This document shows positions 12,953 to 17,333 of a stretch of DNA of 64,000 nt, piece by piece. Positions within the stretch are counted from its first letter, which is position 1; each line of letters begins with the position of its first letter. Origin of the DNA: Phoenicibacter congonensis (GTDB lineage Bacteria > Actinomycetota > Coriobacteriia > Coriobacteriales > Eggerthellaceae); assembly GCF_900169485.1 (NCBI RefSeq), contig NZ_LT821227.1, positions 744,001 through 808,000 of the forward strand. The letters are read 5' to 3'. The translations under genes were made by a program, and so were the position numbers. Under the pieces are notes generated by a model, which was not told where the DNA came from, did not search any database, and saw only the letters and a list, made by a program, of their open reading frames with translations.

Positions 12953-14110
12953 CTAGCTTATGTAGCCTTCGGCTATTTCGTTTACAGCTTTAATTGCAGC
13001 ATCGACTTCTTCAAATGTGTTGAATGAGCAGAACCCAAAACGAACAATGCCTTGTTCAACTGTGTGTAGTGCTTCGTGCATGAGAGGTGCGCAATGTGCT
13101 CCTGGGCGTGTGCAAATGTTGTAGTCACAAGCAAGAATGTCAGAGACTTCTGATGAATCGGCATTTCCAATGTTGATGGCAGAGATTCCGCATCTTCCCA
13201 GTGGATTGCCCTTGCCTCCATAGAACTTAATGTTTGGAGCATTTTTAATTCCATTTTCAAAGCGCTCAATGCACTGATCGGTGTGCTCTTTAATTTTTGC
13301 TGGCGTTTTTTCGAGAACATAATTTATTCCTGCAGCAAAACCAGCGGCCCCATGGGCGTTGCAAGTGCCTGCTTCAAGCGATTCTGGCATGTAGTCAGGA
13401 TGTGTTTTCTCATAGGAATGGACACCACTTCCGCCAACTTTAAAAGAAGGAATGTCGATGCCTTCTTTGACAGCAATCGCTCCAATCCCTTGAGGACCAT
13501 AGAGGGATTTGTGCCCTGTAACACAAACTATGTCAAGGTCGTCATTTTGCATGTCTATGTCAACAACGCCGGCAGTTTGTGCAGCATCAATTATGATTTT
13601 TGCACCGTGAGCATGAGTTATTTCTGCAAGTTTTTTGATGTCATAGATGTCACCAGTCAAATTTGATGAATGAGTTGCAACAACCCACTTTGTTTCTGGA
13701 GTAAATGCTCTCTCGAAATCTTCGATGTGCAATTGCCCTTCTTCATCAACTGGGACAATTGTGAGTTTTGCTCCTTCTTTTTCTTTTCTATAAAGAGGGC
13801 GAAGAACAGAGTTGTGCGAAGCAGCAGTTGTGATTACATGCTCGCCTGGCTTGACTAGCCCGACAATGGCGATGTTTAGCGATTCGGTGACGTTGGCTGT
13901 CAGCGCTATTTGTTCTGGATTTGGTGCGTTTAGCAATTCATTTAGTGCCGCGCGGGCTCTAAATGGTGCCATAGATGAAGCGATTGCAGCAGGGTGTCCG
14001 CCTCTGCCTGGTCCACCAAAGGTTGTGAGAGCTTCTGTGATTGCATCAACAACGCTTTGAGGTTTCTTCATTGTGGAAGCGGCATTGTCAAGATAAATCA
14101 ATTCGTCCAT
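12953..14110 (-). CDS. Class V aminotransferase / cysteine desulfurase family protein of a selenium-trafficking operon
   Basis: A 385-residue PLP enzyme of the cysteine desulfurase/selenocysteine lyase superfamily. Landmarks: YLDNAASTMKKP at the N terminus, ATHSSNLTGDIYDI, IIDAAQTAGV, the PLP lysine in VTGHKSLYGPQGIGA, and a C-terminal Cys loop (CTRPGAHCAPLMHEAL) where the persulfide or selenide donor would sit. It resembles the short cysteine-desulfurase-like subfamily found with selenium and molybdenum-hydroxylase genes. It is the last gene of the minus-strand operon that begins with yedE, which supports a role in mobilising S or Se. Free-standing desulfurase work for Fe-S or thiouridine is more likely done by the second homologue at 17346. 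Confidence 0.88.
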   Translation of the reverse strand: MDELIYLDNAASTMKKPQSVVDAITEALTTFGGPGRGGHPAAIASSMAPFRARAALNELLNAPNPEQIALTANVTESLNIAIVGLVKPGEHVITTAASHNSVLRPLYRKEKEGAKLTIVPVDEEGQLHIEDFERAFTPETKWVVATHSSNLTGDIYDIKKLAEITHAHGAKIIIDAAQTAGVVDIDMQNDDLDIVCVTGHKSLYGPQGIGAIAVKEGIDIPSFKVGGSGVHSYEKTHPDYMPESLEAGTCNAHGAAGFAAGINYVLEKTPAKIKEHTDQCIERFENGIKNAPNIKFYGGKGNPLGRCGISAINIGNADSSEVSDILACDYNICTRPGAHCAPLMHEALHTVEQGIVRFGFCSFNTFEEVDAAIKAVNEIAEGYIS

Positions 14111-14178
14111 GGTAATTGCCTCTTTGCTAAAAATGTGGCCGTGAAAAAAGACAAATAATAGAGGATCTAAAAACGAGC

Positions 14179-14415
14179 TTAAAGCTCAAGATCATAGATT
14201 TCGTCCATGTCTATTTCGTTGTCTTTAATTAGCCCGAGGATAAAATCTTTGTTTTCAACAGGCTCACGCCATGCCAGCCCGCAACCTGCCGAAATAACGC
14301 GAGGAACAGGTATCAAACGACCTTTTGCACCGTTTTTCTTTGCCACATTTTCCATGTGCATTGCACCTGTTGTCGTGTGAAAAGTCACTACTGCATAAAG
14401 CTCTTTTGTTGCCAT
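14179..14415 (-). CDS. DUF3343 protein, putative Se/S carrier-like
   Basis: A 78-residue protein of the DUF3343 family. It has the short family pattern: VTFHTTTGAMHMENVAKK, then IPVPRVISAGCGLAWRE with the single conserved Cys preceded by the PVPR...SAGC motif. Members occur next to YedF/TusA and class V aminotransferases and are thought to carry activated S or Se; this is a family association, not shown biochemically here. It sits between the TusA-like gene and the aminotransferase gene on the same strand. Confidence 0.85.
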   Translation of the reverse strand: MATKELYAVVTFHTTTGAMHMENVAKKNGAKGRLIPVPRVISAGCGLAWREPVENKDFILGLIKDNEIDMDEIYDLEL

Positions 14416-14437
14416 GTCCCTCGCCTTGAAGTTTTAA

Positions 14438-14644
14438 TTATTTGAGTGTGAGAACGAAGTCACCACCGTCTTCGGCAATTGTGACATCTTTACCACGTTT
14501 TTTTGCCATTCTCTCAACGTTGTCGCGTGGAATGGCGCTTGAAACTAGAACATGAATTTCCTCATCAGGGTGTTCTTTGATTGCAGCCAGTGTGAGCATT
14601 ACTGGCTCAGGGCATTGAAGCCCACGTGCATCAACTTCTACCAT
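14438..14644 (-). CDS. TusA/SirA-like (YedF N-terminal type) sulfur or selenium carrier
   Basis: A 68-residue TusA-fold protein. The conserved CPEPV motif (Cys11) in DARGLQCPEPVMLTLAAI is the persulfide/selenide-carrying site. It matches the N-terminal domain of YedF; the C-terminal half of YedF is absent. Next to yedE, DUF3343 and a desulfurase-like gene, it is most likely a selenium carrier, though TusA itself serves tRNA thiolation and molybdenum cofactor sulfuration too. Confidence 0.9.
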   Translation of the reverse strand: MVEVDARGLQCPEPVMLTLAAIKEHPDEEIHVLVSSAIPRDNVERMAKKRGKDVTIAEDGGDFVLTLK

Positions 14645-14723
14645 ATTGATTCCTTCCTAAAATTATTCCTAACTAATTCTAAACATCTTGATTAATTTTT
14701 CCAGTTAAACAGTTAATTTGTAT

Positions 14724-15836
14724 CTAGTTTTGCTCTTTTTGCTTCTTCAAGTTTGCAAAAGCAATGATGAATAGAACTACGATGCAGCAAATGAGGAAAA
14801 TTTGTCCAGCAGTTGTTGGGCCGCCTGCAACAGCTGCTTTTTCTGCTGTTGCTGCCGAAGCTGCAACGCCTGCAAGTCCGAAGTTGTGTGCAAAAGCTGC
14901 ACCGATGAGCATTCCGAGGAATGTCACAGCTCCGTCGCAGGAGCCTTGTCCAGCAAGAGTCATTTGACGTAGTGGGCATCCACCTGCAAGAACAGCGCCA
15001 AAGCCGACTGCATAAAGACCAAGGATGTTCCAAATGTGCTGTGCGTGTGCGATTGGCTGTCCATCAAAAGATGCTTTAAAGTGGCCAGTTGCTACGTTGT
15101 AGATGACCATAATTACAAACATTCCAAGGATTGGAAGAAGGAGGTCAAAGTCGCGCATTAAAATTGCATTTCTTGTGCCTGCTGCGAAGCAAATTCTGCT
15201 TTTTTGTGCAATAGCTCCAATAATGAGAGCAACAATTAATGCGATTGCAACAGGTGCATGTTGTGAGCCTGGTCCTTTTTGGCTAACTACAAAAATGCCA
15301 GCAAAAACGCTCAAGCAAAGACCAACAATCAAAAGGATTGGCAAAATTGCACCTGCTGTTGGTTTTGTCTCGTGCTCGCGTCCAAGCGAGAAACCTCTCT
15401 TCAAGAAAATTGTGCCAGTTGCAATTCCGAGAACAAAGCCAATGAGACCAACCCAAGCGTTAAGGTCGCCAGCTGACATTCTCAAAATCATGCGAAGTGG
15501 GCATCCCAAAAACACGAGCGCACCGATCATCATGATGAAGCCGAGCACAAAGCGAGTCATTGGTGAAGAGCCAGCAGTTGATTTATATTCCTTTGTCGCA
15601 ATTGCAATGAGGAACGAACCAACAACAACGCCAACAATTTCTGGGCGGTAATATTGAACAACTTCAGCTGTGTGAAGTTTCATTGAGCCTGCAGTGTCGC
15701 GAATAAAACATGCGGCGCAAAATGCCATGTTAGCTGGATTTCCGAAGAAAGCAAGCAAGGCAAAGCCAATTCCGCACACCAGGCCGCCGATTAAAAGGCC
15801 GCTCTTAGCATTAAAAAAATGACCTAACTTTTCCAT
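14724..15836 (-). CDS. yedE: YedE family membrane protein, putative selenium (or sulfur) transporter
   Basis: A 370-residue polytopic membrane protein with about ten membrane segments. It is built as two related halves, each with a Cys-containing signature: LGCPLRMILRMSAGDLNAW in the first half and GGCPLRQMTLAGQGSCDG in the second, plus FCAACFIRD and KSRICFAAGTRNAI. These paired Cys motifs are typical of the YeeE/YedE family, whose members import thiosulfate or are linked to selenium metabolism. It is the first gene of the selenium operon (yedE, tusA-like, DUF3343, aminotransferase), with a strong hairpin in its upstream region. Confidence 0.92.
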   Translation of the reverse strand: MEKLGHFFNAKSGLLIGGLVCGIGFALLAFFGNPANMAFCAACFIRDTAGSMKLHTAEVVQYYRPEIVGVVVGSFLIAIATKEYKSTAGSSPMTRFVLGFIMMIGALVFLGCPLRMILRMSAGDLNAWVGLIGFVLGIATGTIFLKRGFSLGREHETKPTAGAILPILLIVGLCLSVFAGIFVVSQKGPGSQHAPVAIALIVALIIGAIAQKSRICFAAGTRNAILMRDFDLLLPILGMFVIMVIYNVATGHFKASFDGQPIAHAQHIWNILGLYAVGFGAVLAGGCPLRQMTLAGQGSCDGAVTFLGMLIGAAFAHNFGLAGVAASAATAEKAAVAGGPTTAGQIFLICCIVVLFIIAFANLKKQKEQN

Positions 15837-16059: not shown

Positions 16060-16542
16060 CTAGAGGAATTTAGATTCAATTTTTCGAAGCGCCATGCGAA
16101 CTTTGCTTTCCTGCGATGGCTTCTCAAATTTTGAAGCAGGAAGAAGCCGATAATCAGGTATTAAAATTGAGTGCTTGTTTGCATATGCCGCTTTTGGGAT
16201 GTTTCTGTAGGTGTTATCTTTACCGATGAGATGTGCCAGCTGCATTGGTGTTACTGTGCAGCCATATCCAGTTTTGAAAAGGCCGCGCCACACTTCCTTT
16301 TCAAATTCTGTTCCTTGTAAAAGAATTGGAATGTTGAAGCGTTTTCTGTCTCCCGATAAAAACTGAAGAATTTGAGTCGAGCATTCGTTTGTGAGTTTTG
16401 TCGGTGTGAATGTGCCGCTCATTTTTTTTGCCCCAAGACTAACAGATGTGATTTGTTTGCCGTTTGAAGCAATTGTGATTTGGCCGAATTGTGAATTGTA
16501 GATGAAGAATGTTAAATCGGAAACTCGCATTTTGCCACTCAC
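16060..16542 (-). CDS. Ogt/MGMT-like protein lacking the catalytic cysteine
   Basis: A 160-residue homologue of methylated-DNA-protein cysteine methyltransferase. The family layout is clear: an N-terminal ribonuclease-like half ending in FLSGDRKRFNIPI, then GTEFEKEVWRGLFKTGYGCTVTPMQLAHLIGK, then the segment that should read NP-x-x-I-I-I-PCHRV. Here it reads NKHSILIPDYRLLP, so the acceptor Cys is Asp and the following His is Tyr. The C-terminal GY-GG-K segment is also lost. It cannot do the suicide alkyl transfer; alkyltransferase-like proteins that only bind lesions have Trp at this place, so the Asp form is unusual. It is divergent from rpe. Confidence 0.7.
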   Translation of the reverse strand: MSGKMRVSDLTFFIYNSQFGQITIASNGKQITSVSLGAKKMSGTFTPTKLTNECSTQILQFLSGDRKRFNIPILLQGTEFEKEVWRGLFKTGYGCTVTPMQLAHLIGKDNTYRNIPKAAYANKHSILIPDYRLLPASKFEKPSQESKVRMALRKIESKFL

Positions 16543-16566
16543 GAAACATTAATTTTTCCAACATTA

Positions 16567-16572
16567 TATAAT
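16567..16572 (+). promoter_or_regulatory. Candidate -10 element of the rpe-iscS-nif3 operon
   Basis: A consensus TATAAT lies 42 bases before the rpe ATG in the divergent intergenic region. No convincing -35 was seen. TTAGAGGA precedes the rpe start as ribosome binding site. Confidence 0.4.
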
Positions 16573-16613
16573 CGAAGTTGTTCAAAGAATTCCAATTTAG
16601 AGGACTGTTTTAG

Positions 16614-17333
16614 ATGTTTGAAAAAGTTAAAATTTCACCTTCGATTTTATCGGCCGACCTTTGTAATCTGGAAAAAGAAATAAAAGCAATTGAATCTGCG
16701 GGAGCAGGGCTTGTGCACATTGATGTTATGGATGGACACTTTGTTCCAAATCTCACTTTTGGGCTTCCGCTTGTTAAAAGAATTCGCGAGATTACAAGTT
16801 TGCCACTTGATGTTCATCTCATGATTTCTAATCCGCTTGATTATGTAGAAAAATATCTCGACGCAGGTGCCGACATTTTAACAGCACACATCGAGGCAGG
16901 TTCACCAGAAGAAATGAATCGCTTTGCTAGGAGGGTTCATGCTGCTGGCAAAAAAGCTGGTGTTGCTCTTCGGCCCAGCACAAAACCAGAGGCGGTAGAC
17001 GACGTTATTTCATCGTTTGACATGGTTTTGGCAATGAGTGTTGAGCCTGGTTTTTCGGGGCAAAAATTTCAATCTAGCGTAATAGATTCCATGGCTGAGA
17101 TTTGTGCCATTGCAGCAGCACATAACTGTTCACCTCTAATGCAAGCAGATGGTGGAATTGGTGTTGGTACGGCTCAAAAGGTGTGCGCAAGTGGTGCCGA
17201 TGTGCTTGTTTGTGGAAATGCATGTTTTTGCAATGATGACTATTCAAAAGCAATTTCTGCAATTAAAGTTGATGCTGAGTTGGGCAGGGCTGCTGGTCTT
17301 AAAAAACAGCAATTGTTAGCGCAATATATGTAG
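16614..17333 (+). CDS. rpe: Ribulose-phosphate 3-epimerase
   Basis: Interconverts ribulose 5-phosphate and xylulose 5-phosphate in the pentose phosphate pathway. The 239-residue TIM barrel shows SPSILSADL, VHIDVMDGHFVPNLTFG (metal-binding His and Asp), LDVHLMISNP, the MSVEPGFSGQKF loop and QADGGIGVGTA (second metal Asp). The C terminus is about 15 residues longer than usual. It is first in a run with the cysteine desulfurase gene (12-base gap) and the Nif3-like gene. Confidence 0.96.
   Translation: MFEKVKISPSILSADLCNLEKEIKAIESAGAGLVHIDVMDGHFVPNLTFGLPLVKRIREITSLPLDVHLMISNPLDYVEKYLDAGADILTAHIEAGSPEEMNRFARRVHAAGKKAGVALRPSTKPEAVDDVISSFDMVLAMSVEPGFSGQKFQSSVIDSMAEICAIAAAHNCSPLMQADGGIGVGTAQKVCASGADVLVCGNACFCNDDYSKAISAIKVDAELGRAAGLKKQQLLAQYM

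Follow-up and report, generated by a model that had tools for sequence, protein, structure and literature searches.

What becomes of a suicide DNA-repair enzyme once its acceptor site is gone? This question is raised by an Ogt-like gene at 16060..16542 on the minus strand of the window, the 64,000-nucleotide stretch of Phoenicibacter congonensis DNA analysed here (C1:744001-808000 of a 1.448 Mb single-contig genome, the genus being placed in Eggerthellaceae by NCBI). A first-pass annotation had described a homologue of recognisable fold with Asp at the acceptor site, had doubted that it was an active enzyme, and had proposed that the protein senses lesions, that it has been repurposed for DNA binding, or that the gene is decaying.

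The gene, its domains and its lost active site

The gene was delimited from its open reading frame, its Pfam matches and its alignment with the orthologue of a sister species. The frame is open and encodes 160 residues when counted from a GTG at 16542; an ATG at 16530 (Met5), which would give 156 residues, is more probably the true start, because translation of the sister orthologue begins at the corresponding position of the alignment. Both Pfam domains of Ogt/MGMT proteins exceed their gathering cut-offs, namely the N-terminal ribonuclease-like domain PF02870 (residues 14-73, 16324..16503, minus strand; 26.8 bits against a cut-off of 21) and the C-terminal DNA-binding/alkyl-acceptor domain PF01035 (residues 79-138, 16129..16308, minus strand; 33.5 bits against 27), the latter covering profile positions 1-60 of 81. 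A phmmer search of the PDB matched the protein to M. tuberculosis OGT with an E value of about 1e-8.

The AlphaFold model, obtained from an alignment of 16 sequences, shows a mean pLDDT of 87 and a pTM of 0.82. Its top Foldseek match is again M. tuberculosis OGT (PDB 4bhb; TM about 0.8), followed by other AGTs, and the alkyltransferase-like proteins (ATLs) S. pombe Atl1 and Vibrio ATL match it over the C-domain only. The alignment consisted mostly of canonical Ogt rows from viral contigs, which biases the prediction towards the Ogt fold, and the model is taken to support compatibility with this fold rather than to prove it. The two Pfam domains and the two-domain model agree with the fold recognised at first pass.

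Likeness to Ogt/MGMT proteins such as M. tuberculosis OGT comprises the two-domain fold, the arginine finger of the helix-turn-helix, the P-x-x-R box and the C-terminal Glu. What sets it apart is the absence of the acceptor Cys, of the base-flipping Tyr and of the GY-GG loop, with an additional His to Tyr replacement in the window protein. On the minus strand, Asp130-Tyr131 (16150..16155) takes the place of the Cys-His of PCHR, the acceptor codon being GAT (16153..16155) and the following one TAT (16150..16152), and the box reads PDYR, exactly as reported at first pass. Alignment to Ada places the Tyr of SYQQLA at Pro99 (16246..16248, minus strand), which replaces the base-flipping Tyr (human Tyr114; for its role, PMC10779285), and the Arg of RAVA at Arg113 (16204..16206, minus strand), the retained arginine finger of the helix-turn-helix (human Arg128). 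The RAVG motif reads RNIP. The GYxGG loop, also reported as missing at first pass, is indeed absent, residues 134-160 (16063..16143, minus strand) carrying instead the tail PASKFEKPxQxSKVRxALR, which is conserved in the sister Phoenicibacter species and keeps Glu156. The loss of the base-flipping Tyr, the change from RAVG to RNIP and the kept arginine finger had not been listed before. Of the features of an active Ogt, the window protein has the domains and the arginine finger and lacks the acceptor Cys and the base-flipping Tyr. The early doubt about an active enzyme was well founded.

The rpe locus across Eggerthellaceae

A search of 138 Eggerthellaceae genomes gave matches in 125, and the gene of the rpe locus could be read in 121. 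In the window, rpe is the divergent neighbour (16614..17333, plus strand), an adjacency conserved across the family: rpe lies within the fetched stretch at 110 of the first 112 usable loci, mostly less than 1 kb away. The acceptor position is Cys in 45 of the 121 genomes and another residue in 76 (T 19, D 17, A 16, S 10, V 7, I 3, L 2, G 1 and E 1), Trp never occurring in the Cys-less group. Homologues with a lost Cys are widespread, Asp itself, for which the first-pass annotation had advised looking in the form of PDYR-type homologues in other Coriobacteriia, being found in 17. Since the position varies freely within the clade, Asp does not appear as the special state it had been taken for, and its role as a specific new catalyst was ruled out on these grounds.

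In an order-wide search of 397 genomes the score drops sharply outside Eggerthellaceae. The best-scoring gene beyond the family (G390) carries PCHR, with rpe missing from the stretch fetched for it, and PCHR was likewise present in the other outside hits that were read. Scanning viral contigs with the Cys-less profile returned no related proteins. The recognisable flanking genes, as far as crude gene calls indicate, are the housekeeping genes rpe, nifS, der and plsY, and a functional linkage to rpe or nifS was accordingly set aside, the arrangement being read as inherited gene order.

When the second Ogt copies serve as outgroup of the tree, the rpe-locus proteins that carry Cys branch at the base, and a single clade (SH-aLRT 97) joins 70 Cys-less rows and three Cys rows; two more Ser forms lie elsewhere, the fewest changes being five. 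Grouping the 70 Cys-less rows alone as one clade was not rejected (p-AU 0.38). One main Cys loss is possible, and so are several losses, or a loss followed by regain; because three clade members (L040, L042 and L107) keep Cys, the loss may have been multiple or reversible. This was a quick tree that raised a long-branch warning, the Phoenicibacter branch measuring 2.27, and the place of the window pair inside the clade is unsure. The three members just named (L040 and L042 from genus g24, L107 from genus g17) combine an acceptor Cys with absence of the base-flipping Tyr and of the GY-GG loop, and are either relics of an intermediate or proteins that regained the Cys.

The base-flipping Tyr is absent in all 73 clade rows (Ala 40, Thr 13, Cys 8, Ser 7, others), and all 39 rows of the Cys grade have Tyr or Phe at this position. 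The Tyr of GYxGG is found in 33 of the 39 Cys-grade rows; in the clade it does not figure among the frequent residues. Position 120 of the recognition helix shifts from Asn (35/39, Cys grade) to Arg or Lys (52/73, clade), and the entropy of the acceptor column amounts to 2.72 bits in the clade, where the median is 1.74, against 0.29 in the Cys grade. The clade keeps Pro129, Arg132 and Glu156 in 73/73 rows, His131 in 72/73 and the arginine finger in 71/73. Such a residue pattern is the signature that would be expected when alkyl transfer is given up and the fold and the DNA-contacting helix are kept.

At position 122, eight residues before the lost acceptor, 14 clade members show a Cys at the Asn hinge (CP for NP), among them L034, L035, L038, L045, L058, L070, L113, L130, L140 and L143. 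Considering this Cys, together with the retention in nearly all clade members of the His and Glu that partner the catalytic Cys, a protein that still accepts alkyl groups through Asp/Glu or through a relocated Cys might be envisaged. However, many members have Ala, Val, Ile, Leu or Gly at the acceptor site, and the window protein has Tyr for His, has lost the base-flipping Tyr and the GY-GG loop, and carries its two cysteines, Cys54 and Cys95, away from the acceptor site, so that we regard such an activity as highly improbable.

Sister orthologue, selection and canonical partners

The MAG of a sister species of the same genus (L033, 84% complete) contains an orthologue 73% identical to the window protein, with PEHR as its box. 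Both species share the gene order nifS, rpe, Ogt-like gene, yedE, sirA-like, DUF3343-like and csd-like, the gene names being assigned from sequence resemblance. Because this PEHR orthologue exists, and Cys-less versions occupy the same locus elsewhere, PDYR reflects more than chance or a lone sequencing error. The error hiding PCHR that the first-pass annotation had named as its possible undoing is ruled out, the MAG being independent and Cys-less forms occurring at this locus across Eggerthellaceae (76/121 genomes).

As for the surroundings, the yedE-like transporter, sirA-like, DUF3343-like and csd-like genes stand in a row at 12953-15836 of the window (minus strand), and the row is conserved in the sister species. 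An AT-rich stretch, GATTATATAAT, lies between the Ogt-like gene and rpe in both species (window 16543-16613; L033 1615-1696). A promoter and terminator scan performed at chance level, the intergenic GATTATATAAT region giving no significant promoter match.

For the Phoenicibacter pair, dN/dS is 0.17-0.18 (NG86) or 0.11-0.12 (ML), with dS of about 1.2-1.5; the purifying selection on the frame that had been suggested as a check is present. The comparison genes yedE and csd give 0.04-0.07 (ML), other informative Cys-less pairs 0.02-0.14 (ML) and Cys pairs 0.05-0.08, the near-identical pair L066/L068 being uninformative (dS about 0.001-0.009). In neutral simulations, identity did not exceed 66% even at a distance of 0.3, where 97% of runs contained a stop codon; at the synonymous distance of the pair, identity fell to 13%, with a stop in nearly every run, against the 73% and no stop observed. 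The Ogt-like gene thus evolves somewhat faster than its neighbours, yet it is no pseudogene, this candidate being ruled out by dN/dS and the neutral simulations.

The window's own genome encodes a second Ogt with PCHR and SYGEIA (L001; G000:C1:1014009-1014260), 174 residues long and of two-domain size. Both proteins belong to the same family, L001 alone of the two having PCHR, and L001 falls in a clade separate from the rpe-locus group. Another PCHR protein, either a two-domain Ogt or a short MGMT-like protein, occurs in 71 of the 72 Cys-less genomes of the tree set, the exception being the incomplete sister MAG (84%). By Pfam match counts, no other copy is found in 2/76 Cys-less as against 9/45 Cys genomes (Fisher p 0.002, a test that treats genomes as independent and so overstates the evidence). 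This co-occurrence is consistent with the site having been lost in genomes that have another protein for the repair reaction.

A gene freed by the second Ogt could also be heading for loss. The redundant PCHR protein, the length of the Phoenicibacter branch (2.27), the several near-invariant residues lost and the few Eggerthellaceae genomes in which no rpe-type copy was seen would all suit such a decay. Against it stand the dN/dS of 0.11-0.18 at dS 1.2-1.5, the 73% identity without a stop where neutrality predicts 13%, and the persistence of the gene in dozens of genera that no longer have the site. Because dN/dS is low in the informative Cys-less pairs, and with the frame intact in two species, the first-pass option of a decaying gene is rejected, and we give decay little chance.

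A probable DNA-binding derivative of Ogt and its relation to ATLs

What has been shown above is the homology and the fold, the missing catalytic residues, and the conservation, synteny and selection; on these grounds we consider it reasonably probable that the window protein is a retained, non-catalytic DNA-binding derivative of Ogt. Its history would begin with an ancient Ogt gene, passed on vertically at the Eggerthellaceae rpe locus, of which Phoenicibacter holds one copy; one large clade would then have given up the alkyl-acceptor Cys, the Tyr that flips bases and, in most cases, the GY-GG loop, a separate PCHR protein keeping the repair function. What is left still has the AGT fold with both domains, as well as the helix-turn-helix and its arginine finger, and is under purifying selection. 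The helix-turn-helix would lie in the minor groove with the Arg finger inserted, probably where DNA is damaged or distorted, and the bound sites might be protected or flagged with no alkyl group transferred, and perhaps handed over to another repair pathway. Of the first-pass options, that of a repurposed DNA-binding protein fits best; that of a lesion sensor may still hold, although weakened by loss of the base-flipping Tyr.

Three aspects count against this reading: (i) the DNA contacts of the Phoenicibacter pair may differ from those of the rest of the clade, because some otherwise near-invariant positions are changed in the pair (IPYG to TGYG, RAVG to RNIP/RNVS, and NP to NK), (ii) Cys persists in L040, L042 and L107, and (iii) the neighbours rpe, nifS, der and plsY give no functional lead.

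Non-catalytic relatives of Ogt already described include the ATLs, which lack the N-terminal domain, keep the Tyr of the helix-turn-helix and the Arg finger, and in most cases carry Trp in the acceptor position (2023 review, PMC10779285). As in S. pombe Atl1, E. coli YbaZ/ATL and T. thermophilus TTHA1564, the acceptor Cys is absent from the Cys-less group and the helix-turn-helix with its Arg finger is kept. Unlike them, the group has the N-domain, has lost the Tyr, and shows T, D, A, S, V, I, L, G or E instead of Trp. The window protein follows suit: its acceptor Cys is absent (Asp, not Trp, replacing it), its N-domain is present, and it lacks the conserved Tyr/Arg combination. A functional ATL, which would flip O6-alkylguanine into its pocket, hold it and recruit UvrA for nucleotide excision repair, seems an unlikely description. 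Absence of the acceptor Cys and of GY-GG, with the helix-turn-helix and Arg finger kept, speaks for it, as do the C-domain fold match to S. pombe Atl1 and Vibrio ATL and the small residues at the acceptor site, which would allow binding, a human AGT Cys-to-Ser variant having been crystallised as a stable complex with O6-methylguanine DNA (PMC10779285). Against it, all 73 rows lack the Tyr and none has Trp at the site, and the N-domain is retained. The Cys-less group may thus act partly like an ATL, yet by feature comparison it is not a member, because the N-terminal domain is present and the Tyr is lost.

Extending the DNA-binding derivative to the whole rpe-locus Cys-less clade is more tentative. 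The clade might amount to a functional class of its own: DNA binders without catalytic activity that have both domains and the arginine finger, lack the Tyr and possess a basic recognition helix, and that work beside canonical Ogt and recognise a different DNA feature with no ATL-style base flipping. In the open-access literature searched, no report of the Cys-less rpe-locus group was found, and within that literature the group appears undescribed.

In dozens of genomes, then, a suicide DNA-repair enzyme has lost its acceptor site and is still kept by selection, so that common gut bacteria offer a direct way to test what the AGT fold does apart from catalysis. Annotation is also concerned: all ten Cys-less relatives tested exceed the cut-off of NCBIfam TIGR00589, the window protein falling below it, and such relatives would be named methylated-DNA--[protein]-cysteine S-methyltransferase although incapable of this reaction through the known mechanism. 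Finally, in genome G041, a frame at 212-1084 of L199 (minus strand) scores as a short MGMT-like protein with PYHR, and adjoins and partly overlaps a canonical Ogt frame.
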